A stretch of 56,100 nt of DNA from Acidobacteriaceae bacterium. Lineage in GTDB: Bacteria; Acidobacteriota; Terriglobia; Terriglobales; Acidobacteriaceae. Location: positions 1,487-57,586 of the forward strand of contig PLHP01000403.1 in NCBI GenBank assembly GCA_003138955.1, read 5' to 3'. The position numbers were made by a program, and so were the translations under genes. The notes below the pieces were generated by a model. That model saw nothing but the letters and a program-made list of their open reading frames with translations, was not told the origin of the DNA and made no database searches. Below are positions 13,185 to 34,475 of the stretch, piece after piece (the first letter of the stretch is position 1; the number at the start of each line of letters is the position of its first letter).

Positions 13185-14312
13185 TCACGGACGAACGGGA
13201 GAAGCATCGTCTCTTGATTCTATCAATTCGGGCCGGGTGGGCCGGGCGTGGGTTCCGGAATTTGGTGACGCCGCCGCAGCAGGTTTCTGTTTTGTGGTTG
13301 CTCCGGCGTTGTAATAGCACAGTTCTCCCGGGACGCACGGCGCAACACTCTCGCGAAGGGCCTGCGCATACGCCTGGATGGCTTCTTCGAGGGCCCCGTT
13401 TCGTGTTTTCTCCACGACCGCCCGAACCAGCCTCACACTGACCAGCTTGCGCAAGGAGGACGCTTCGCGGCCGACAATCTTCACTGCGGAAATGCCCATA
13501 CGGTGGAAGGCGGGGATGGCGCAAAGGCCGCACGGCACCAGCGGCAGCGCGGTCTGCGGCCGGGCCGAGCAGGCGTAATTGGTGAGCCCGTCAATGCGAC
13601 GATGAAAATCCTGCAGGAGGGTGTTTACCTCCTCCTCTTCTCCCGAAGCCCAGGGTGCGCCGGAAAGCTTGAAAGACTGCGAGTCCATCCGCGCCAGTCC
13701 CACGCAAAAGGCACCCACGGAACGGTGGTGGGTCGTGAGGCAGAACCCCTCTTCGAAAATGCAACCGTCGTTCAGGATGAACACCTCGAGTTCGACCTGA
13801 GAGCCGATTTCGCCGGCGATGCGCCCGATCTCTGCCAGCGTAAGGCTGCGAGGCAGAATGACACGGCGCACTCCGAGAGACTGGAAGAAACGGACGGCAG
13901 CCACATTCAACGACGCGGCGATGGAACTGAGATGCAGAGCGCAGGGCAAGTCCTGTTTCGCCAGTTCCAGGATCAAGGCCGGATCGGAGACGATCAGCCC
14001 ATCCACGCTGGCTTCCTCGACATAGCGGCGGGCGAGCTCAAGCACCAGTGGCAGTTGGCTGGCGGTATAGGTCTGAGCGTTCAAGGTCACAAACACGGGC
14101 ACCGAACGGCCGTGAGCCTGTTGGACGACCCGGGCAAGATCCGAGAAGGTGCGCAGGTTCCCGCCAGCCGGGCTGCGGCGGTTCAGCCAGATGGCGCCGC
14201 TGTAACGGGCCACCCACTCATCCGCTACCACGCCGCAGTAAAGTTCCTCCGCCCCGCTGGCCAGGAGCATCTCGGTTTCCTCCGGTGAATTCAAGGGTGC
14301 CAGAATTTTCAT
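13185..14312 (-). CDS. U32 family protein, UbiU/RlhA-like (putative Fe-S hydroxylase)
   Basis: MKILAPLNSPEETEMLLASGAEELYCGV; ELEVFILNDGCIFEEGFC (CX6C); PCGLCAIPAFHRMGISAVKIVGRE. Confidence 0.8.
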   Translation of the reverse strand: MKILAPLNSPEETEMLLASGAEELYCGVVADEWVARYSGAIWLNRRSPAGGNLRTFSDLARVVQQAHGRSVPVFVTLNAQTYTASQLPLVLELARRYVEEASVDGLIVSDPALILELAKQDLPCALHLSSIAASLNVAAVRFFQSLGVRRVILPRSLTLAEIGRIAGEIGSQVELEVFILNDGCIFEEGFCLTTHHRSVGAFCVGLARMDSQSFKLSGAPWASGEEEEVNTLLQDFHRRIDGLTNYACSARPQTALPLVPCGLCAIPAFHRMGISAVKIVGREASSLRKLVSVRLVRAVVEKTRNGALEEAIQAYAQALRESVAPCVPGELCYYNAGATTKQKPAAAASPNSGTHARPTRPELIESRDDASPVRP

Positions 14313-14319
14313 CTTGCGC

Positions 14320-15246
14320 TCACATGGGCAAGTCCGGCTGGTAGATCACCCGGCTCACCCCTCGGGCCTCTGCTCCCAGCAGGAAGCCCTCGAGCACCTC
14401 GGTATCGGGGCAGTAGAAAAAAGTGTTTCCGCGCTGATAAAACGCCGTGCCGTCGGTGGGTAGGGTAGTACCGACGAAGCGGTGCTCCGTAAGGTAGAGC
14501 CGACACTCGTGCTGACACCGCTGCATGGGCCGAAATCGCGCACTCTCCTCGAGATGGAGCGCGCCGATCATGCATTGCCGTCCCGTAGTCACGAAACCAT
14601 AGGGGAAGTAAAACGCCACCTGAAACGGGAGCCGGCGCAGATCCGAGGTCGAGTCTTGAAGCAAGATGTCCAGTTCTACCGTCTCGACACCATAGCGGCG
14701 TAGCAGGCGCTGCAGCGATGGCATCTCGAGTCCGTCCGGCTGCATGGAAGCGCGGATGCCCTCCGGGGCATCCGGTGCGTTGTATAAGGGCGTGACGCGC
14801 GGATCCCGCATCGTTTTATTCAAGAGGCGTCCACGAACCGGCCGCAACGCGTCAAACTCTTCGTGCAGCACCTGTAATGTGCCCCAGTCGTTGAATACCA
14901 CTTCCGCGCCGTTGGCCTGAGCGGCGAGCCAGGCAAAAAGAGGCCGGAGTTTATCCAAGCCAGCGTCGGTGACCGGAGGCGTCAGGAAGGTGATCGCCAA
15001 GCCGCGCTCCCGAAGCTCGCGGCACACTTTGGAGAAGCTCTCGCGCGCCGGGATCAGGTACTGGCAAAATTCGTTGCCCAGGTAGGCACGTTGCGGGCGA
15101 ACCGGCCCAGCCACCCGTTGGACCACATCCGCCGCTGCGGCTTGCAAATCGCTCAGCGGAAGTTCAGAGCTTCGGGGCGGGCGCGAAAAAAAGTCGTCGC
15201 AGTGTTCCAGGGAGCTTCCGTCCGCAACGTGAATGGCCCACTCCAT
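14320..15246 (-). CDS. U32 family protein, UbiV-like (putative Fe-S partner)
   Basis: AYLGNEFCQYLIPARESFSKVCRELRERGLAITFLTP; GRQCMIGALHLEESARFRPMQRCQHECRLY, i.e. one N-terminal Cys plus CX18CX3C, resembling the four-Cys layout of UbiV. Confidence 0.65.
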   Translation of the reverse strand: MEWAIHVADGSSLEHCDDFFSRPPRSSELPLSDLQAAAADVVQRVAGPVRPQRAYLGNEFCQYLIPARESFSKVCRELRERGLAITFLTPPVTDAGLDKLRPLFAWLAAQANGAEVVFNDWGTLQVLHEEFDALRPVRGRLLNKTMRDPRVTPLYNAPDAPEGIRASMQPDGLEMPSLQRLLRRYGVETVELDILLQDSTSDLRRLPFQVAFYFPYGFVTTGRQCMIGALHLEESARFRPMQRCQHECRLYLTEHRFVGTTLPTDGTAFYQRGNTFFYCPDTEVLEGFLLGAEARGVSRVIYQPDLPM

Positions 15247-15505
15247 AAGCGGGTGCCCGTGTGGTCAGTTCCTTTCCGGTCTCGCCTGACTCTGGCCGAA
15301 CCGACCGATTGTACTCCTACAGAACAGGCCCGGCGCAATTGCTGATTCCAAGTCCCACGGCAGTGACGTCACGAAATGTAGAATCCGAATTAAATTCGAG
15401 CGCGGCTAACTGACGAAAGATCGACATCTCGTCAGCGAACGCGTGACGGTGGTTTTACAAGGCGGGGCGAGATAGGTTCTAGTTCTTGCCGCCGTCCAGA
15501 AACGG

Positions 15506-16636
15506 CTAGGGCACCGCTCCCGGCGGCAGAGCGCGCAACTGACTGGAGCTTGGGTCGCCGGGAAGCTCGATGCTGTGTATGCGTTTCAAACTCTGCGCAT
15601 CGTAAACATTCACGAACGGGCCGGCCGACGACGGCAGGTACACTTTCTTGCCATCGCGCGTGAGGTTAACGACGTAGGTGGTCCCTTCCGTATCGCGCAC
15701 CTCAGCAATTTTGCGTTGCGTCAGGTCCACTACCACCAGTTGGTTCATGACCAGGTATGCACGCTTGCGGTCGGGTGAGACTACCGAAGAATACAAAGGA
15801 ATGGGCGGGCCCAGTTCCATGAAGTCCAACTTTCCCGTGTCCACGTCCATGTTGACCAGGCCGAGCACGAGATTGTGCGTAAACGGGTTGGTGGCGAAAG
15901 AGGGCATGCTCACGATTCCGCTCTGCTCGTACTGACTAAAGAAGGGAAGAGTGTCCATTGGGCTCTGATCGGGCAGCAGGCCGGTCTGCAGGGGTACCGT
16001 TTCCACGACATGCCGCTGCGCCAGATCAATGAAGTAGACATTTCGTCCCCAGGCGATCAGCCGGTTCGGGTCCGCCGGCACGAACAGGCTGACCACGCCG
16101 TCGGGCGCGTCCATGATCTTCTTCTTTGCGTGCGTGTTCAGGTCCACGGACCAGATCTCCGGCGGCAGCGCCACATATTCATCGGGAAGTTGCTTGACGG
16201 GACGAATATGGGCAAACAGGCGGTCTCCCTTGCGGCTCACTGCCAGGCCGAAAATGTTGATCTTGACGCCCGGCTGCGCCAGATCAATCACTTCTTCCAC
16301 TTTCCGGTCGGGTACATTCACGACCTCGATCTTGGCGCGGCCATCGGTGGTCAGGAAGACGTGTTTGCCGTCGGGAGAAGGGATGATCTCCTTCGGGGAA
16401 CGCCCCTTGGTGGGAATCTGGGCGACGATTTCATCGCGGCTCGTATCAATGACCAGGAGCCCGGCGGGGTGAATGCCGAGGACGAAGTAGTCGTGATCCT
16501 GGCTCCAGCCTAGGGAGGTGGCCAGCAGCAGGAGGCCCAGCGCGATTGCAAGATGCGCGCGAGGACTGAGCCGAAGGCGCGGGCTTCGAAGAATGACGCG
16601 TGTGGTCCAAAACATGATCGCCCACCGGCCTTTCAT
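15506..16636 (-). CDS. qhpB: Quinohemoprotein amine dehydrogenase beta subunit (beta-propeller), copy 1
   Basis: Signal region then YFVLGIHPAGLLVIDTSRDEIVAQI..., PLYSSVVSPDRKRAYLVMNQLVVVDL; immediately downstream of the gamma subunit. Confidence 0.85.
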   Translation of the reverse strand: MKGRWAIMFWTTRVILRSPRLRLSPRAHLAIALGLLLLATSLGWSQDHDYFVLGIHPAGLLVIDTSRDEIVAQIPTKGRSPKEIIPSPDGKHVFLTTDGRAKIEVVNVPDRKVEEVIDLAQPGVKINIFGLAVSRKGDRLFAHIRPVKQLPDEYVALPPEIWSVDLNTHAKKKIMDAPDGVVSLFVPADPNRLIAWGRNVYFIDLAQRHVVETVPLQTGLLPDQSPMDTLPFFSQYEQSGIVSMPSFATNPFTHNLVLGLVNMDVDTGKLDFMELGPPIPLYSSVVSPDRKRAYLVMNQLVVVDLTQRKIAEVRDTEGTTYVVNLTRDGKKVYLPSSAGPFVNVYDAQSLKRIHSIELPGDPSSSQLRALPPGAVP

Positions 16637-16992
16637 TGGTTGTCCGTCGGCACCAGATCCAGTTTGCGCCAGTCCCGCGACGCCGAGGCGCACTTGTCCG
16701 ACCATTCCAGGAAGCTCGTCAGCTGATCAGGTAACTGGGCCGGCCACCAGCACTCGTCGTAGCAGCCGTAGAGATCGGATTCCATGGGCTGGCACAGGCC
16801 CGTCATCTGGCCGGAACTGTCGGTCTCCCACCCGGGATCGAAGATGAGCGCGCAGCCCAATGGGAGTTGGGGCGCCTGCTGTAGCGCCCGCACGTCGGGC
16901 TTGCTCTCCGCCCGGGAGCCGCTGTCGGCTTGCTGGTGTGCCGCCGCCTCGATCTTTCTGGCTTTCTTATTGAGTGGCTTCAAGTGTTTCAT
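16633..16992 (-). CDS. qhpC: Quinohemoprotein amine dehydrogenase gamma subunit (CTQ and thioether peptide)
   Basis: LGCALIFDPGWETDSSGQMTGLCQPMESDLYGCYDECWWPAQLPD; spacings C+9 E, C+6 D, C+8 D and C+6 W fit the known Cys-Glu/Asp thioethers and CTQ. Confidence 0.95.
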   Translation of the reverse strand: MKHLKPLNKKARKIEAAAHQQADSGSRAESKPDVRALQQAPQLPLGCALIFDPGWETDSSGQMTGLCQPMESDLYGCYDECWWPAQLPDQLTSFLEWSDKCASASRDWRKLDLVPTDNQ

Positions 16993-17009: not shown

Positions 17010-18605
17010 TTACGGTATTAGTGGGTCTCTCATCTTGGGGATGCTCACCAGCAGGTAGGCACGTGCCTTCATCGCTTTGGCGTCATCCCCCGGTTTGTAT
17101 TCGGCAGTTACATAGACGTCGCCAATGTTATCGGCACTGCGGTAACGTTTCGGATTCGGTCCCTCGGTCGCGGGAGTAAATAATCCGTTCTGATCGATGG
17201 AGCCGACAAACTCCCGATCCTTGTCGTCGTAGGCGTTGTAAAACTCTTCGATTGCCCAGTTCGGCTTGACGACGCCTATCTCGAGATCGTCGTCGTTGCC
17301 GGGAACGCCATCCGGACCGCGGTTGTACGCGTGCGCTTCAAACTGGACGTACTGCTTCGAATAGTGAAGCCCGCCCGTTCGCGCCATTATCCGATCCGGC
17401 AGCACGCGAATGTAGTCCACCTTGTCGTACACGCAGAGCAAATCCTTGGCTGTGGCCGGGCCCACTTGTACCACCCGTCGGCCATTTTTCGCATCCGCCG
17501 CGACCGTGGCCTCCATCGTAATCCGATCGGTTGTGGCGGCGGTGATCTTCTCGATCTTCAGGCCATCGCCCAGGCTCAGATCGCCGGGTTTCACGTTGGC
17601 CGGAAGGTCGGCCCCGTAGATGCGCAGCTCGATGTTCTTGGCGCCAGACTGTACGGCCTTCGGAAACACGGCGACGAGGCGGGGCTGCCCGTCCCGGCGG
17701 TGGAGAGTTTCCTCGCCTGCGATTCCCTGCCGTTCGGCGCCCAGCCATCGGCCGCGCAGCGTCGCGCCGTCGGCGGAAAGATGATAGATTTCCCGTCCCT
17801 TTGCCCCATCCTTCCACTGGGCATTGCCTCTCCAGGAAACCGCTCCATACCATTGTCCGGTACCGGTGCGCGTCGTGCTGGTGCCGTCGGCGAACTCCAG
17901 AGCAGCCTGAGTCTGCCGCGAGCCGTCGGCCGCCACGCTCATCTTGATCTGTCCCACGTAATCGCCCTTGCCCGCCTGATACCCTCGAACAACCCAAGCG
18001 GCTTCGCCGGGAGCAGTCTGGTTCTTTTCCCGCTGCCATTCCGGAGTTTCCAGCGGGAACTGCTGGGCCAGGTAGGCGAGCGCTTCATCGCACGTTGCCA
18101 TCCAATCCATGTAGCGATGTTGATAAACGATGGTGGGGATGATGGCCAGCAGGAAGCTTTTCAGCTTGAGCCATTCCTCTTTGGTCCGACGCTGGGCTGC
18201 AATCCTAGCGTAGCTGTGGCAGGTCCCGCAGGCCGTCCGGACCGCTTCGTTGGGAATCTGCTCCTGTTCTCCGCGTTGCTCCAGTTCGCGTTGCTCCAGG
18301 GCATAGCTAATCTTGTCCACCTCCGAAGCGGTCAGGCCTTGCTGATCCCCCAGGTACTGCACGATGGCCCGCGCTTCCGCCGGAGTCAGGCGGACCTTGT
18401 GCAGTTGCACCATGCGCCGCACGGTTTCCTCCCAACCCTCCGGTGTCTTGCGCTGGTAGGAGATGCGGCTCATGCGCTGCTGGGAATCCAGGGTGTGACA
18501 GCCGCCACACTTGTCTTGCACAAGTTGGCTCTTTACGGGGATGCCCTCAGCCCACAGCATTGCGCCGAGAGCGGCAGTCGTCAGCGTTATCATCAGGAGT
18601 CGCAT
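17010..18605 (-). CDS. qhpA: Quinohemoprotein amine dehydrogenase alpha subunit (diheme)
   Basis: Signal peptide; two heme motifs CGGCH and CGTCH; followed by beta-domain-rich C-terminal part; adjacent to gamma and beta. Confidence 0.92.
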   Translation of the reverse strand: MRLLMITLTTAALGAMLWAEGIPVKSQLVQDKCGGCHTLDSQQRMSRISYQRKTPEGWEETVRRMVQLHKVRLTPAEARAIVQYLGDQQGLTASEVDKISYALEQRELEQRGEQEQIPNEAVRTACGTCHSYARIAAQRRTKEEWLKLKSFLLAIIPTIVYQHRYMDWMATCDEALAYLAQQFPLETPEWQREKNQTAPGEAAWVVRGYQAGKGDYVGQIKMSVAADGSRQTQAALEFADGTSTTRTGTGQWYGAVSWRGNAQWKDGAKGREIYHLSADGATLRGRWLGAERQGIAGEETLHRRDGQPRLVAVFPKAVQSGAKNIELRIYGADLPANVKPGDLSLGDGLKIEKITAATTDRITMEATVAADAKNGRRVVQVGPATAKDLLCVYDKVDYIRVLPDRIMARTGGLHYSKQYVQFEAHAYNRGPDGVPGNDDDLEIGVVKPNWAIEEFYNAYDDKDREFVGSIDQNGLFTPATEGPNPKRYRSADNIGDVYVTAEYKPGDDAKAMKARAYLLVSIPKMRDPLIP

Positions 18606-27563: not shown

Positions 27564-28325
27564 TCAGGCTTCGAAATGAGCGGCTGCTTCTTCCATGGGC
27601 GTTGCTTGCGCAATCAAAAATTCTACGATTTCTTCGTGCCGTGCCTGCGGCTTCTCTTCCAGGATCCGAGCCACGCGGGCAGTGATGTGGGCAGCGGCAA
27701 AACTGTGCCCTTGTAAGTTGAAGCTTTGCGGGCGTCCTGGCAGCGGGCATGGACTGGGATGGGCGCGGAACGGCACGGCCTCGTCAGGGCAATAGAAGTG
27801 CTCGTCCCAGGCACACCGCTGGTCTCCCGCGACTGCGATCACGTTGGCGAAACTGGCCGGGAACCACTCTCGCTCCTCGTCCCCCGCAGCCGCCACCAGA
27901 ACCATGCCGCGCCCGATGGCTTCATTACAGGCGTCCTGCAATACCTCCCGGTGCTCCGCCCGCTCCGTTCCCAGGCTGATGTTCACCGCGTGCATACCGT
28001 GCTCGAGCGCCCAGCGAATCGCCGCCGCCACGACTGCAGCCTGTGTCCGCAATTCCCGGTCAAAAACTCTCACGGCGTACAGTTCAACTTCTGGCGCCTT
28101 GGCGCGGATCACGCCGGCAACGGCCGTCCCGTGACCCAGCAGGTCGCGAAAATCCGGATCGAACTCCAGGCTGCCATCTCCGTGCCGGCGGACGTGAACC
28201 CCGCCTGCGACCTCGCGCACGTGCGAGTGAAGGGCGTTGATCCCGCTGTCCAGGACTGCAACTCGCACGCCCTGGCCGCCCTTGTTCGGCGGGCCAATTC
28301 CGGCTGACCGGTCCCGATGGTTCAC
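27564..28325 (-). CDS. qhpE: Subtilisin-like protease, QhpE-like (leader removal from gamma subunit)
   Basis: VRVAVLDSGIN, DLLGHGTAVAGVI, SFAAAHITARVARIL; no signal peptide; ATGA overlap with the qhpF stop. Confidence 0.85.
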   Translation of the reverse strand: MNHRDRSAGIGPPNKGGQGVRVAVLDSGINALHSHVREVAGGVHVRRHGDGSLEFDPDFRDLLGHGTAVAGVIRAKAPEVELYAVRVFDRELRTQAAVVAAAIRWALEHGMHAVNISLGTERAEHREVLQDACNEAIGRGMVLVAAAGDEEREWFPASFANVIAVAGDQRCAWDEHFYCPDEAVPFRAHPSPCPLPGRPQSFNLQGHSFAAAHITARVARILEEKPQARHEEIVEFLIAQATPMEEAAAHFEA

Positions 28326-30142
28326 GACGCCACCGCCTCCACGCCGGGAACGGTTTGTCGCACGCGAGCCGCGCGCTGTAGCGCCTGGTACAAACCCTCC
28401 ACCTCCGCCAAGCGCTCGTGCGTTCCTACCTGCACGACTTCGCCTCGATCAAGCACTAGGATCTCATCGGCATCTCGCACCGAAGACAACCGGTGGGTGA
28501 TGACCAGCGTCGTGCGTCCCTTGAGACACTCCTCCAGCGCCAGCCAGATCCGCGATTCTGTCAGCACATCTAAAGTGGCGGTGGCCTCGTCGAAGATCCA
28601 TAATCTGGCGTCCCGCAGCACCGCCCGCGCAATCGCGATCCGCTGGCGCTGGCCGGTCGAGAGCTTAAGGCCACGTTCCCCGACCACCGTCTCCATGCCA
28701 TGGGGGGTGGAAAGAATAAATTCTTCCAGGTCTGCCTTGCGTGCCGCTTCCCACACCTGCTCGCGGGTGGCACCCCAGTGGGCGTAGCGGATGTTCTCCT
28801 CGATGCTGGTGTGGAACAGAAAGGGCTCGGAACTGACCACCGCAATTTGCCCCCGCAACGAACGCACCTGCAGATCGCGCAGGTCATGTCCGTCGAAATA
28901 CACCGCTCCTTGCTGCGGATCGTAGAAGCGCAACAGCAGGTCCACGAGCGTGGATTTGCCCGCTCCGCTCGGCCCGACGATTGCCAGGCGGCATCCCGGC
29001 GACAGGTTGAAACTGACTCCACGCACCACCGGGATTCCCGGCCGGTAGGCAAAGGTGACGTCGCGGAACTCCACCGCGCCCCTCGTGGCGCCCAGCGATA
29101 CCGCGCCCTCCCGCTCCCGCACTTCCGGCGCAAGATCGAGAAACTCAAAAACACGATCCAGCGAAACCCGGGCGCGCTGCAGGCTAAGGTAGAGTCCAAT
29201 CACGTTTTGCAGCGGGCTCAGCAGGCGTGCCTGGTAGGCAGCGAACGCCACCAGCGCTCCCAGGCTCATGCTCCCAACGATCACCTGGTGGCCCCCATAG
29301 AGCAACAGAACCAGCGTGCTCAAGCTCATAAATATGGTGGGCAGCCCGCCGGCATACGCGGAGACCACCTGGTACCGCAGCACGCTCGCGATGTACCCCT
29401 GGTTTTTCTGTGTCAGCTTCTCCGCCTCGGCATCCTCCGCGCCCACGGTAGTGATCCACTTCATGCCATGCAGCGATTCCAGCACTGTACTGCTCAAATC
29501 GGCATTGTGCTCCCGCACCACGCGCGCCTGCTGTGCGATCCGCCGCCGGTACGGCACCAGTACCCAAAAACTGAAAGGCACCAGCACAAAGCCCAGAAGG
29601 AACAGTTTCCAGTTGAGATAGACCAGCACCATAACCGCGACCAGCAGGGTCAGGACACTCAGCGCCAGACTGAACAAGGCATCGGTCGCGACCAACTGGA
29701 TCTCCGCGACGTCGCTGTTCAGTCGGGAAACAATCTCGCCCGTCCGGGTTTGGGCATAGAAGCGCGGCGACAGTGTTTGCAGGTGGCGAAAGACAAATAC
29801 CCGCATCTCCATCAGGATGCGGGATGAAACCGCAGTGTACAGGTAGCGGGTGACGGCGCCGGTGACGAAACTCAGCACCACCAGCGCAGCCAGCACCAGC
29901 GTCGCGACCAGCAGCAGGTGCGGCTTCCGCCCCACCAGCACATCGTCAATCAGGAACTTGGCGCCGAGCGGGTACACCAGGCCGAGCAAAGTGGAGAGCA
30001 GGGTCAGACCGAAAACCAGCGCAAGCTTGCCGGCGTGTGGACGTACGAAAGGGAAGACCCGGCGCAACTGTCCCAGCCCTGCAACCGGCGCGCCCGCACC
30101 GTTCCGGTCGCTCCCTTCCTGCCTAGACTCGGTGCTCATCAT
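28322..30142 (-). CDS. qhpF: ABC transporter (fused TMD-NBD), QhpF-like
   Basis: Walker A VGPSGAGKST, signature LSTGQRQRIAIARAVL, Walker B LWIFDEATATLD; position next to qhpE. Confidence 0.88.
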   Translation of the reverse strand: MMSTESRQEGSDRNGAGAPVAGLGQLRRVFPFVRPHAGKLALVFGLTLLSTLLGLVYPLGAKFLIDDVLVGRKPHLLLVATLVLAALVVLSFVTGAVTRYLYTAVSSRILMEMRVFVFRHLQTLSPRFYAQTRTGEIVSRLNSDVAEIQLVATDALFSLALSVLTLLVAVMVLVYLNWKLFLLGFVLVPFSFWVLVPYRRRIAQQARVVREHNADLSSTVLESLHGMKWITTVGAEDAEAEKLTQKNQGYIASVLRYQVVSAYAGGLPTIFMSLSTLVLLLYGGHQVIVGSMSLGALVAFAAYQARLLSPLQNVIGLYLSLQRARVSLDRVFEFLDLAPEVREREGAVSLGATRGAVEFRDVTFAYRPGIPVVRGVSFNLSPGCRLAIVGPSGAGKSTLVDLLLRFYDPQQGAVYFDGHDLRDLQVRSLRGQIAVVSSEPFLFHTSIEENIRYAHWGATREQVWEAARKADLEEFILSTPHGMETVVGERGLKLSTGQRQRIAIARAVLRDARLWIFDEATATLDVLTESRIWLALEECLKGRTTLVITHRLSSVRDADEILVLDRGEVVQVGTHERLAEVEGLYQALQRAARVRQTVPGVEAVAS

Positions 30143-30148
30143 GGCCCG

Positions 30149-31276
30149 TCATCGAACTGCATCCTGGGGTACGACGCGCAGCGCGGTTACGCTACCGTCC
30201 CCGGAGAGTTCTATTTTCTTGATCTGCTTCAGGGTCTGCGTGTCGTAGATGTCCATAAAAGGTCCGGCCCCGGAGACGTACAGCTTCCTCCCATCGCGGG
30301 AGATGTTAGTTACATATTTCGTCTGATCCAAGTCAACGACATTCGTCACACGGCGGCTCTCCAGATCCACGGCCACTAGCTGGTTCATGACCGCATAAGC
30401 CCGTTTGCGATCCGGAGACACCACGGCAGAATACAGCGGAACGGCTGGTCCCAGATCGACCAGGTCAGTCTTGCCCGTTTCCACATCAATGTTCACCAGC
30501 CCCATCAAGCTTTTCCCGTTCAGGGGATTCGTCGTGTAGTAGGGGATGGAAAAAATTCCGCTTTGCTCGTACTGGGTAAACAGCGGAAGGCTGTTGAGCG
30601 GGCCATGGGAAGGGTCCGGTGTAATCAGAGGAAACTGATCGATAATCCGGCCCTGCGCGATATCAATAAAATAAAGATCGCGCCCCCAGCCCAGCAGTCG
30701 CTTTCCGTCCCCCAGTGCGATCAGCGAGGCAACTCCTTCGGGCACCTCCGCAATCTTGCGCGACTTGCGGGTACTCAAGTCGTAGGCTAGGATCTGCGGC
30801 GGCTCCGCCTGGTATTCGTCTGCCAGCAATCGCACCGGCTTGACGTGCACATACAGCACCTTGTCGTCTGTGCTCAAGGCCGTGCCGTAAATCACGAACT
30901 TGTATCCGGGAGGAGCCAGTCGGATGACGTCTTCCGCCTTGCGGTTGACGAGGTCCACGATTTCGATCTGGCTGCGTCCCTCGGTAGTGACATAAAGATG
31001 CCTGCCGTCCCGGGAACAGTCGATTTCCTTTGGAGCGCGTCCGCGCAGGGAAATCTCGCCAACCACTTCATCACGGCTGGTATCCAACACGATCAGCGCA
31101 TGCGGATGGATGCCCATCACCATGTACTCGTGTCTGGCCGCCTGCGCCCACAACGGCGCGGCCGCCGGCAGAAACAACAAGCCGATCGCCAGCAGGCAAA
31201 ACCAGCCCGTCTTTGACTGCCACCGTATTCTCCGAGTTTCAACATCGCCAATCAGAATTCGCATTATTGCCCTCAT
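30149..31276 (-). CDS. Quinohemoprotein amine dehydrogenase beta-subunit paralogue, copy 2
   Basis: HEYMVMGIHPHALIVLDTSRDEVVGEISLRGRAPKEID..., PLYSAVVSPDRKRAYAVMNQLVAVDL; clearly paralogous to 15506-16636. Confidence 0.85.
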   Translation of the reverse strand: MRAIMRILIGDVETRRIRWQSKTGWFCLLAIGLLFLPAAAPLWAQAARHEYMVMGIHPHALIVLDTSRDEVVGEISLRGRAPKEIDCSRDGRHLYVTTEGRSQIEIVDLVNRKAEDVIRLAPPGYKFVIYGTALSTDDKVLYVHVKPVRLLADEYQAEPPQILAYDLSTRKSRKIAEVPEGVASLIALGDGKRLLGWGRDLYFIDIAQGRIIDQFPLITPDPSHGPLNSLPLFTQYEQSGIFSIPYYTTNPLNGKSLMGLVNIDVETGKTDLVDLGPAVPLYSAVVSPDRKRAYAVMNQLVAVDLESRRVTNVVDLDQTKYVTNISRDGRKLYVSGAGPFMDIYDTQTLKQIKKIELSGDGSVTALRVVPQDAVR

Positions 31277-32883
31277 CTCTGTCTCTCAATCACTTTTTCA
31301 AAGAAAGCGGGATTCCTTTCCATGATTTCTCCGTAGCATTCCAGACCCGAATCAATCCAGGTGCGGATCCATTCGCAGTAGTGCGGATTGCCGTGGTAGA
31401 GGTCGCCGTACCGGGTGTGCGCTTCGTGATGACAACCGCCCGAGCAGATGTGTCGCACCCAGCAGGTCTGGCAGGGCGCCTTATGGCTCAGATGAGCGCT
31501 TTCCAGAAACTCTGCCTGCTTCTCCACATCCAGCCCGTCGTACACGGAACCCAGGCGGTGTTCCGGCGATTCCAGGAAGCGATGACATAAATAAAGATCG
31601 CCCTTGGCGCCCACGCCCAGCAAACCCAGTCCGGCTCCGCAGGGATAAGTCTTCACGATCCCGGCGTGCAACTCGGAAAGCAAATTGGAAAGGTTGGAGA
31701 ACCCGAGATACTCGTTCCTGGCCGCCTTCTCCACATACAGCCGGGAGAGCTGCCGAAACGCGCCCATGATCTCCCACAGTTCTTCCGCGGTCAGGGCGTA
31801 GTCGTCGCGGTCGGCGGAAGTCACCGGCGCGAAACCAACTTCGTGGAAGCCCATCTCCTTCAAGTGCCAGAAGCACTCCTCCACGGCCGTAACGCCGTGC
31901 GTCAGTGTGGCGCGGGCCGCTACGCGGCGCGTCTTGTGGTTGCGCAGCAAGTTGAGCACCCGGGGATGGATCATGTCGTAGGAGCCGAGTCCGCTTTTAT
32001 ACGTGCGCCGCAGATCATGATACTTCTTCGGCCCGTCGATGCTGACGGCGACTCCGATCTCGCGATCGCTCAGGAATTCGATCACTTCCGGCGTCAGGTA
32101 GGTGGCGTTCGTGGTCATGCTGAATTCCACTCGCTTGCCCGCCTTGCGTCCTGCCTCGTTCGCATAAACCACCAGGCGGCGGATCAGCGCCAGATTCATC
32201 AAAGGTTCTCCGCCGAAAAACACCAGCGTCACGCTGTCGCTGTCTCCGGAGTTTTGCAGAAGAAAATCGACGCTGCGGCGCGCCGTCGCTTCGTCCATCA
32301 TCTGGCGCGGCACTCCGTAGTCGCCTTGCGCCGCGAAGCAGTAACTGCATCCCAGGTTGCAGTCGTTCGCCACATTGAGCACGAGGCTCTTCTGGGGGAA
32401 GGGCAATGACGGGAGCTTCGGCGGCGTGGAACTGGCCGCGTCTTCCCGCACACCACGAAGCCGGATCGCACCCATCCGGCCGAGTTCCGACAAGCCCCCC
32501 CGGATCTCTTCGCGGGAATGTTCGCGTTCGAATGCGGAATACAACTTGGGGAAGGCGACGGGAGGGTTTCCGGTCGCTTGCTCGCCTGCGGTCGCAAGCG
32601 GTGGACCTTCCATTCCGCTGCGGAGGAACTTCAGGATCGTTGCTCCCAGTTCGTCCACGGCAAAGATGCCCATGGTCGCAACCACCATCACGTACTCGCG
32701 GCCGCTGACCGAAAATTGCCGGACTTCGCCGAGCTGTACACTGGGTTCGGTGACCGCTTCCTCTTGCGACCGCGCTGGCTGCGCGGCCGGGGGGTGAACG
32801 CCCGCTTGCGGCATCAGCCGCGAAAGCGGGAAGAAATTCTGTGCGCTACCATCCTGGAACGTTCCCATGGTCGCCACCTGCAC
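31273..32883 (-). CDS. qhpD: Radical SAM/SPASM maturase QhpD
   Basis: CNLGCSYCFAAQGDYG (CX3CX2C), GGEPLMN, C-terminal CQTCWVRHICSGGCHHEAH; ATGA overlap with beta copy 2. Confidence 0.9.
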   Translation of the reverse strand: MQVATMGTFQDGSAQNFFPLSRLMPQAGVHPPAAQPARSQEEAVTEPSVQLGEVRQFSVSGREYVMVVATMGIFAVDELGATILKFLRSGMEGPPLATAGEQATGNPPVAFPKLYSAFEREHSREEIRGGLSELGRMGAIRLRGVREDAASSTPPKLPSLPFPQKSLVLNVANDCNLGCSYCFAAQGDYGVPRQMMDEATARRSVDFLLQNSGDSDSVTLVFFGGEPLMNLALIRRLVVYANEAGRKAGKRVEFSMTTNATYLTPEVIEFLSDREIGVAVSIDGPKKYHDLRRTYKSGLGSYDMIHPRVLNLLRNHKTRRVAARATLTHGVTAVEECFWHLKEMGFHEVGFAPVTSADRDDYALTAEELWEIMGAFRQLSRLYVEKAARNEYLGFSNLSNLLSELHAGIVKTYPCGAGLGLLGVGAKGDLYLCHRFLESPEHRLGSVYDGLDVEKQAEFLESAHLSHKAPCQTCWVRHICSGGCHHEAHTRYGDLYHGNPHYCEWIRTWIDSGLECYGEIMERNPAFFEKVIERQR

Positions 32884-33157: not shown

Positions 33158-33460
33158 GTGGACGCCCGCTACATACACAGAGTGAAATTCGAACGCGAGG
33201 GAACTCTGGCGGTGGTCACGCTCAAACGTCCCAGCCGGCGCAACGCGCTCTACCTCGATCTCATGTACGAGTTGACGGACTGTCTCTCAGCGATCGGCCG
33301 CGATCGGGAGATTCATGCCGTCATCCTAGCCGCTGCGGGAAGCGTCTTCTGCTCGGGACACGACCGCTGGATGCCTTGGAAGCGGTGTCCCTACCCAAGA
33401 CGCACCAGAAGCGCCGCAAGACGCGCACGCCGGCAGGTCAGCGGGGAGACGCTGCACTGA
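33158..33460 (+). pseudogene. Truncated enoyl-CoA hydratase (N-terminal ~70 residues)
   Basis: VKFEREGTLAVVTLKRPSRRNALYLDLMYELTDCLSAIGRDREIHAVILAAAGSVFCSGHD then unrelated sequence and stop. Confidence 0.7.
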
Positions 33461-34475
33461 CCGGCACCGGGACTCTCTTATGTCCGGAGAGTTCTTCCCC
33501 GGTCTGCAGGATGTCGTCGCGGGCGTAGTCGTCGAAGAAGGCCCAATCCCCCTGTCTCGATCGGATGCCGGGAAGGACTGCCTCCACTAACGCGTTGCCG
33601 GATTTCCCATCGGCCTGGGCCCGGCTGACGGCCGCCCGCAAATCCGCCAAATATTGCCGGAACGTGGAAACGTCCCCCGCGGTGGCGACCTCGCCGTGAC
33701 CCGGCACGAACGTGGACGAGCCGTGCTCGGACTGAAGGGCGGCAAGAGTGCGAACCCAGGATTCGGTCGTGGCGTCGATCAGGTTCGGGAAGTGGTTCTT
33801 CCACAGCAGATCGCCGCAGAACACTACCCTCGCATCAGGCACAAAGACGACAGAATCGCCGCCGGTGTGGCCAGGGTAGTATCGAACCTCAAGGGTTCGA
33901 GTCCCCAGATAAAGATCGATTCGGTCGTCATATACCACATCCGGCAAAGTCAGCGATTGCACCCGGGCCTTGATCTCCGGGGGTATGGGATCGGTCCAGA
34001 ACTTCAAGTTCTCGCTGCGCATCCAGGCGCGCACGTTGCGGTGGGCCACGATGGTAGCGCCCGCGCTGGCAAAGACGTCATTTCCGTTCACGTGGTCGAT
34101 GTGGTAGTGGGTATTGACCACAAAACGGATCGGCAGCGGTGTGATCTTGCGAATCTCTGCCAGAAGTTCCTTGGCTGCTTCCGGATCCTGGAAGGTGTCG
34201 ATGACCGCTACCCCATTATCCCCCACGACAAACCCGGAATTACCAAAGGCCTTCCCGGCATCGCTGGCAATGACCGCCCACACCCCATCGCCGACTTTGC
34301 GGAGCGTGAAGTCTGGAGCACTTGCGGCGGCACTGAAGCACGGCAGCGCAACGAGGACGAGAAACAGCAAGACCAACGACCGGTGTCTCATGGTTGAATT
34401 CCTGCCCCAGACAGGATACGCCAGCGAAGCGCGCGGCAACAGCATTACGGCGCGTGAAATTCTGGGACAACGCAT
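33438..34475 (-). CDS. Metallo-beta-lactamase-fold hydrolase (quinoprotein-associated type)
   Basis: FVVNTHYHIDHVNGNDVF, YYPGHTGGDSVVFVPD, FCGDLLWKNHFPN; next to qhp genes; true start probably further downstream, near MRHRSLVLLFLVLVALPCF. Confidence 0.8.
   Translation of the reverse strand: MRCPRISRAVMLLPRASLAYPVWGRNSTMRHRSLVLLFLVLVALPCFSAAASAPDFTLRKVGDGVWAVIASDAGKAFGNSGFVVGDNGVAVIDTFQDPEAAKELLAEIRKITPLPIRFVVNTHYHIDHVNGNDVFASAGATIVAHRNVRAWMRSENLKFWTDPIPPEIKARVQSLTLPDVVYDDRIDLYLGTRTLEVRYYPGHTGGDSVVFVPDARVVFCGDLLWKNHFPNLIDATTESWVRTLAALQSEHGSSTFVPGHGEVATAGDVSTFRQYLADLRAAVSRAQADGKSGNALVEAVLPGIRSRQGDWAFFDDYARDDILQTGEELSGHKRVPVPVSAASPR

Follow-up and report, generated by a model that had tools for sequence, protein, structure and literature searches.

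A pair of U32-type proteins takes the place of QhpG beside quinohemoprotein amine dehydrogenase genes and probably offers an oxygen-free route to tryptophan hydroxylation

A 56,100-bp stretch of DNA from an Acidobacteriaceae bacterium (assembly GCA_003138955.1, contig PLHP01000403.1, positions 1,487 to 57,586 of the forward strand; the whole stretch is called the window here) carries the genes of a quinohemoprotein amine dehydrogenase (QHNDH), whose cofactor is cysteine tryptophylquinone (CTQ), and beside them two genes for a UbiU-like protein (13185–14312) and a UbiV-like protein (14320–15246). The dedication of this pair to QHNDH and its replacement of the flavoprotein hydroxylase QhpG are well supported, and the gene content, the replacement pattern, the separate clade and the conserved Cys and CTQ residues can all be read from the sequences themselves. 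We consider it quite likely that the two proteins form a U32 heterodimer with [4Fe-4S] clusters that hydroxylates the CTQ tryptophan without O2, probably with prephenate, in place of QhpG. With a little more reserve, we also favor a wider proposal, in which such a heterodimer would be an O2-independent, prephenate-dependent protein-tryptophan dihydroxylase that replaces QhpG in at least three phylum-level groups, obligate anaerobes included. A literature search, outside whose scope lay most subscription journals and preprints, returned no link between U32 proteins and cysteine tryptophylquinone or quinohemoproteins, and the pair is probably a hitherto undescribed oxygen-free route to protein-tryptophan hydroxylation.

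In the system described so far, QhpG uses O2 to hydroxylate Trp43 of the gamma subunit twice, in the cytoplasm and in a complex with QhpC and QhpD, and a Paracoccus qhpG mutant yields a quinone-less, inactive enzyme (PMC7876137). The predicted CTQ pair of the window, C77 and W83 of qhpC (codons at 16744–16764, minus strand), corresponds to Cys37 and Trp43 in the mature Pseudomonas putida gamma subunit (PMC7876137). Both columns are invariant across 60 of 60 aligned gamma subunits, comprising 29 of 29 from loci that carry the pair and 31 of 31 others. Because these residues are invariant in the pair-carrying loci and the enzyme of the qhpG mutant is inactive, some hydroxylase must be required there as well.

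An earlier note on this DNA, made from the sequence alone, had seen no FAD monooxygenase-like open reading frame (ORF) in the window, and a QhpG profile indeed matches none of the window's ORFs even at E 10. A search of the whole genome, whose success that note had named as a possible refutation, likewise found no QhpG homolog: the best profile match reaches 41 bits, against 564–699 bits in four QhpG-positive Acidobacteriota controls, and a Pseudomonas QhpG protein query gives a best E value of 0.24. QhpG is also missing from the closest relative (L071; UbiU-like protein 95% identical; 6.0-Mb genome), where the best flavoprotein match is 33 bits, and from the near-complete F-183 genome (L084/G405).

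The distribution of the two systems was surveyed in 1,070 genomes from three phylum-level groups, of which 47 were classed as QHNDH-positive by a QH_gamma match above the family cut-off: 29 of the 396 from the window's phylum, 9 of the 297 from that of Geobacter argillaceus and 9 of the 377 from that to which the L125 genome belongs. Among these 47 genomes, 27 hold a QhpG-like flavoprotein, 24 the U32 pair, 4 both and none neither, with the pair present in all 20 QhpG-free genomes and in just 4 of the 27 others (Fisher P = 1e-9, kinship ignored). Kinship makes this P value too small, yet the pattern repeats in all three groups. In the window's phylum, a QhpG-like flavoprotein occurs in 25 of 29 genomes (with a score of ≥585 bits inside or close to the cluster in 19, on other contigs in G188 and G376, and as a short divergent form in four), while the other four, the window's included, have the pair in the qhp cluster. 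All nine QHNDH genomes of the Geobacter argillaceus phylum carry the pair and none has a QhpG above 93 bits; six show complete alpha-D-gamma-beta-UbiV-UbiU-F-E clusters, and in the other three the pair lies with QhpD, QhpF and QhpE (G484), with QhpF (G607) or alone on a 3.1-kb contig (G408). In the third phylum, the pair occurs in seven of nine genomes, lying within the cluster in six of them and elsewhere in G713, and two of nine have QhpG beside qhp genes. The mutual exclusion of qhpG and the pair, for which the earlier note had suggested a survey, is not strict, as four Acidobacteriota genomes hold QhpG with an unlinked pair and one cluster, in G397, holds the pair with a QhpG-like flavoprotein.

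Six genomes considered as lacking both systems proved to have one. QhpG lies on another contig in G188 (L165) and next to the alpha gene on another contig in G376 (L159), and G352, G225, G241 and G187 carry a short divergent flavoprotein beside qhpE. Similarly, G405, considered as having UbiV without UbiU, has a qhp-type UbiU elsewhere on its chromosome. The short flavoprotein (~340 aa) is found in qhp clusters without a standard QhpG in four Acidobacteriota genomes and on a Novosphingobium plasmid (L041:13765-14820, L042:13875-14903, L044:13824-14828, L045:5360-6376 and L038:11694-12983) and is probably a second type of QhpG.

The association of the pair with QHNDH in other genomes is very strong. 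Within the window's phylum, the UbiV-like gene is found in 8 of 396 genomes, all of them among the 29 that are QHNDH-positive (hypergeometric P = 3e-10, kinship ignored); four of the eight have only the pair, linked to qhp genes, and four have QhpG together with an unlinked pair, so that even unlinked pairs travel with QHNDH. Most complete clusters of two groups share the order gamma-(beta)-UbiV-UbiU-QhpF-QhpE, and in the third group the pair is again found in qhp clusters. A scan of GTDB representatives, biased toward the window's own type because it used two exact peptide motifs, returned 64 UbiV-like loci, 14 of which lie beside qhp genes (L071, L074–L084, L113 and L125). Two more (L072, L073) are fragments of one metagenome-assembled genome and are near-identical to the window's pair, on contigs that show no qhp genes. 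The remaining loci (L085–L112, L114–L124 and L126–L134) are U32 pairs without nearby qhp genes, often in two copies, and their hosts are mostly anaerobic bacteria and archaea (Thermodesulfobacteriota, Omnitrophota, Elusimicrobiota, Lentisphaerota, Asgard and Woesearchaeota). No qhp-type UbiU was found in the plasmid collection.

Phylogenetic trees place the qhp-linked pairs, together with the unlinked pairs of QHNDH genomes, in a single clade (support 91/98 in the UbiU tree and 97 in the UbiV tree, the root of the latter being uncertain because the E. coli branch is very long, at 4.6). In the UbiU tree, a 100/99 branch separates this clade from E. coli UbiU, TrhP and RlhA and from the U32 proteins encoded on contig C85 of the window's own genome, which group with TrhP and RlhA. 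These data bear on the idea that chance put the pair beside the qhp genes and that its role is a housekeeping hydroxylation of RNA or quinones. Its distant homology to UbiU, TrhP and RlhA would be in keeping with such a role, but its separate clade, its restriction to QHNDH genomes within the phylum, its linkage in three phylum-level groups and the presence of the genome's TrhP/RlhA-grouping genes on contig C85 make this most improbable. Placement in a clade of rRNA- and tRNA-hydroxylating proteins, which the note had set against its own proposal, is rejected by the trees.

Two sets of loci show further arrangements. G377 has two qhp loci, one with the order alpha-D-gamma-beta-ALDH (L039) and one with D-gamma-UbiV-UbiU-F-E and no alpha or beta seen (L040), and here two QHNDHs may share a single pair and a single exporter. 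Additionally, loci L205–L210 hold a divergent gamma subfamily (~60 bits to QH_gamma) with its own UbiV-UbiU pair, beside which no alpha subunit was recognized.

The UbiU-like protein (375 aa, minus strand) matches PF01136 (Peptidase_U32, E 6.5e-34) and is homologous to E. coli UbiU (hhalign 99.7%); at 85 bits it falls far under the 440-bit cut-off of the NCBIfam UbiU model, and it is not a UbiU ortholog proper. It contains C184-X6-C191 and CGLCAIPAFHRMGISAVKIVGRE. When compared with the canonical UbiU/UbiV cluster ligands (taken from PMC6747719), its C184, C191 and C203 align with C169, C176 and C193 of UbiU and are kept in 30 of 30 clade members, and the fourth UbiU ligand is left unaligned. 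Four further cysteines, C261, C264, C326 and C332, are present in 29–30 of 30 clade members and lack counterparts in canonical UbiU, suggesting that the fourth ligand has moved or that there is an additional Fe-S cluster. The same four are also common in other pairs that are not linked to qhp genes. An AlphaFold2 model of the protein (pLDDT 77) has the solved U32 structure 5D88 as its best match (E 2.5e-8), and we claim no cluster geometry because the loop at 185–208 is of low confidence.

The UbiV-like protein (308 aa, minus strand) has no Pfam or NCBIfam match. It does contain LGNEFC (C61) and C225-X18-C244-X3-C248, which correspond to the CXnC..CX3C cluster motif of UbiV, and each of these four cysteines is kept in 30–31 of 31 clade members. 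All the motifs described in the note, CX6C in the one protein and LGNEFC and CX18CX3C in the other, could be located in the translations. As E. coli UbiV alone is too distant for comparison, we built a profile of seven canonical UbiVs; a profile of 26 UbiV-like relatives matches it at 85% (E 6e-6) over 95 columns of the N-terminal half only, and its GNEFC aligns with GEAVC, which contains the canonical UbiV ligand C39. The AlphaFold2 model (pLDDT 82) matches generic TIM barrels only. Searches of solved structures by sequence gave no useful match.

Several observations weigh against the pair being an oxygen-independent replacement for QhpG. Canonical UbiV is only a distant relative of the UbiV-like protein. 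The window's own assembly is in 423 contigs and 85% complete, and four Acidobacteriota genomes (G041, G116, G191 and G253) hold QhpG together with a pair unlinked to qhp. Furthermore, both systems lie within ~25 kb of one contig (G397:C108; L192, L158) in G397, which is related to the window's organism. The contig encodes a full qhp set along with the pair and, downstream of qhpE at a distance of 3 kb, a QhpG-like flavoprotein (341 bits); this is the one region that holds both. A true QhpG might thus lie in the unassembled 15% of the genome, with the pair as a low-oxygen backup like that in the four genomes with both. E. coli keeps O2-dependent UbiIHF alongside O2-independent UbiUV (PMC10470549), which possession of both QhpG and the pair would parallel. 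We regard a hidden QhpG as very unlikely, however, given that the qhp cluster, almost always the site of QhpG, is assembled in this genome, that both L071 and L084/G405 also lack it, and that the pair is found in 20 of 20 QhpG-free genomes; its role would be the same even if a QhpG were present.

Distant flavoproteins count on the same side. The pair-only genomes G403, G259, G840 and G404 encode flavoproteins that score 120–220 bits against the QhpG profile, away from the qhp genes. Flavoproteins in this range also occur in QhpG-positive genomes; of the ones from pair-only genomes that were included in a tree, most group with these paralogs, but that of G259 groups with one near the G397 cluster, which leaves a small chance of a substitute flavoprotein. 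The pair could accordingly be dedicated to QHNDH and act at another step, by supplying electrons or Fe-S clusters to QhpD, aiding cross-linking or oxidizing dihydroxy-Trp, with an unrecognized flavoprotein or other enzyme performing the hydroxylation. Presence and linkage do not name the step, and QhpG itself aids QhpD by binding cross-linked QhpC (PMC7876137). Nevertheless, the occurrence of the pair precisely in the genomes without QhpG, and its absence from 23 of the 27 that have one, would not be expected of an extra step; the characterized U32 relatives with such a Cys pattern act in hydroxylations, and the window's genome and L071 have weak flavoprotein matches only (41 and 33 bits). We judge a role at another step unlikely. 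Finally, the window's organism encodes haem-copper oxidases and is by gene content not a strict anaerobe, so the argument from strict anaerobiosis fails for this organism, though it stands for the Geobacterales. Oxidase content was tried as a marker of anaerobes in Acidobacteriota and is uninformative, as every genome has a match.

Replacement of QhpG by the pair, as the earlier note had proposed, is supported by the 20 of 20 QhpG-free genomes and by the separate clade, and from these proteins and their relatives we infer the heterodimer, its clusters, the reaction, the positions of the hydroxyls and the oxygen donor. UbiU-UbiV use two [4Fe-4S] clusters in several O2-free hydroxylations of a benzene ring (PMC6747719, PMC10470549), their reaction is O2-independent even in air (PMC10470549), and prephenate is described in a review as the oxygen source for anaerobic ubiquinone (PMC11574389). 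Given this ring chemistry, the prephenate report and the role of QhpG, the pair most likely performs both hydroxylations. In the proposed pathway, QhpD would cross-link QhpC, the gamma precursor, through thioether bonds in the cytoplasm, and the U32 heterodimer, instead of QhpG, would add two hydroxyls to Trp83, most likely at indole C7 and then C6, without O2. Prephenate would be the probable source of the oxygen, in line with proposals for UbiUV, RlhA and TrhP. QhpE would then cut the leader, QhpF would export the product, and the haems of the alpha subunit would complete oxidation to CTQ.

The system shares its three subunits, QhpD, QhpE and QhpF, the CTQ Cys and Trp and the logic of its gene cluster with the QhpG-containing QHNDH systems of Paracoccus denitrificans and Pseudomonas putida (PMC7876137), and differs in having two U32 genes, no QhpG in cluster or genome and a chemistry predicted to be O2-free. 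With the UbiU-UbiV ubiquinone system (PMC6747719) it has in common an adjacent gene pair, a UbiU-type U32 domain, the four-Cys motif of UbiV, three of four UbiU cluster cysteines in alignment and a predicted ring hydroxylation. In contrast to that system, four extra invariant cysteines are present in the UbiU-like protein, the proteins form a separate clade, the gene order is V-U rather than U-V, no UbiT gene is seen beside the pair, and the predicted substrate is a protein tryptophan rather than a lipid ring. TrhP and RlhA (prephenate-dependent RNA hydroxylation; PMC6599085) share the U32 superfamily, CX6C, a link to prephenate and O2-independent hydroxylation (predicted here); their substrates are RNA, they fall outside the qhp clade (100/99), and the window's genome has its own homologs of them on contig C85. 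The unlinked pairs of anaerobes (most of L085–L134) show the same two-gene design and UbiV Cys motif, but have no nearby qhp genes and fall outside the qhp clade.

All QHNDH genes of the window lie on the minus strand, in two blocks. The first is the strand-consistent run qhpA-qhpC-qhpB-UbiV-like-UbiU-like, in which the U32 gene pair reported by the note beside the qhp genes is confirmed and begins 259 bp from qhpB; the gaps between qhpA and qhpC and between the UbiV-like and UbiU-like genes are 17 bp and 7 bp. It comprises qhpA, the alpha subunit with a haem-binding domain (17010–18605; TIGR03908, 461 bits, over the cut-off), qhpC, the 119-aa gamma precursor (16633–16992; NF037958, 140.6 bits, cut-off 50), and a first qhpB-like beta-propeller subunit (15506–16705; TIGR03907, 157.5 bits, below the cut-off of 223), whose true start is probably further in because its called start overlaps qhpC. 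The second block, ~9 kb away, contains the radical-SAM thioether maturase QhpD (31273–32883; TIGR03906, 521 bits, cut-off 453), a second qhpB-like beta propeller (30149–31276; TIGR03907, 190 bits, again below 223), the ABC exporter QhpF (28322–30142; ABC_membrane and ABC_tran domains), assigned by family and by its position adjoining QhpE as in other qhp clusters, and the subtilisin-like leader protease QhpE (27564–28325; NF049966, 188 bits, cut-off 165). The full set of alpha, beta, gamma, QhpD, QhpE and QhpF listed in the note is therefore present, both betas scoring below their own cut-off; the note had overlooked the second qhpB and the fact that the pair belongs to a set that recurs elsewhere. 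The genome has one gamma subunit gene and two differing QhpB-like beta propellers. Upstream of QhpD, a metallo-hydrolase (33438–34475) resembles the quinoprotein relay (SoxH-related) family, and genes of the reductive benzoyl-CoA pathway lie near the locus.

In the window's organism, the pair would suit low-oxygen growth. Geobacter argillaceus, a member of the obligately anaerobic Geobacterales (PMC8516083), has a complete qhp cluster with the pair and no QhpG, and in two relatives, G428 and G651, no haem-copper oxidase exceeds the cut-off. QHNDHs are reported, in a title cited in PMC11231019, to start anaerobic amine degradation in Aromatoleum. Obligate anaerobes possess QHNDH genes although CTQ formation in the known system depends on O2; substitution of the pair for QhpG would account for cofactor synthesis in the absence of O2. 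If this is correct, the substrates of U32 proteins would extend from RNA and ubiquinone precursors to protein residues, and the gamma subunit would offer a defined protein substrate, easily readable by mass spectrometry, with which to settle how U32 enzymes transfer oxygen and whether its immediate source is prephenate.

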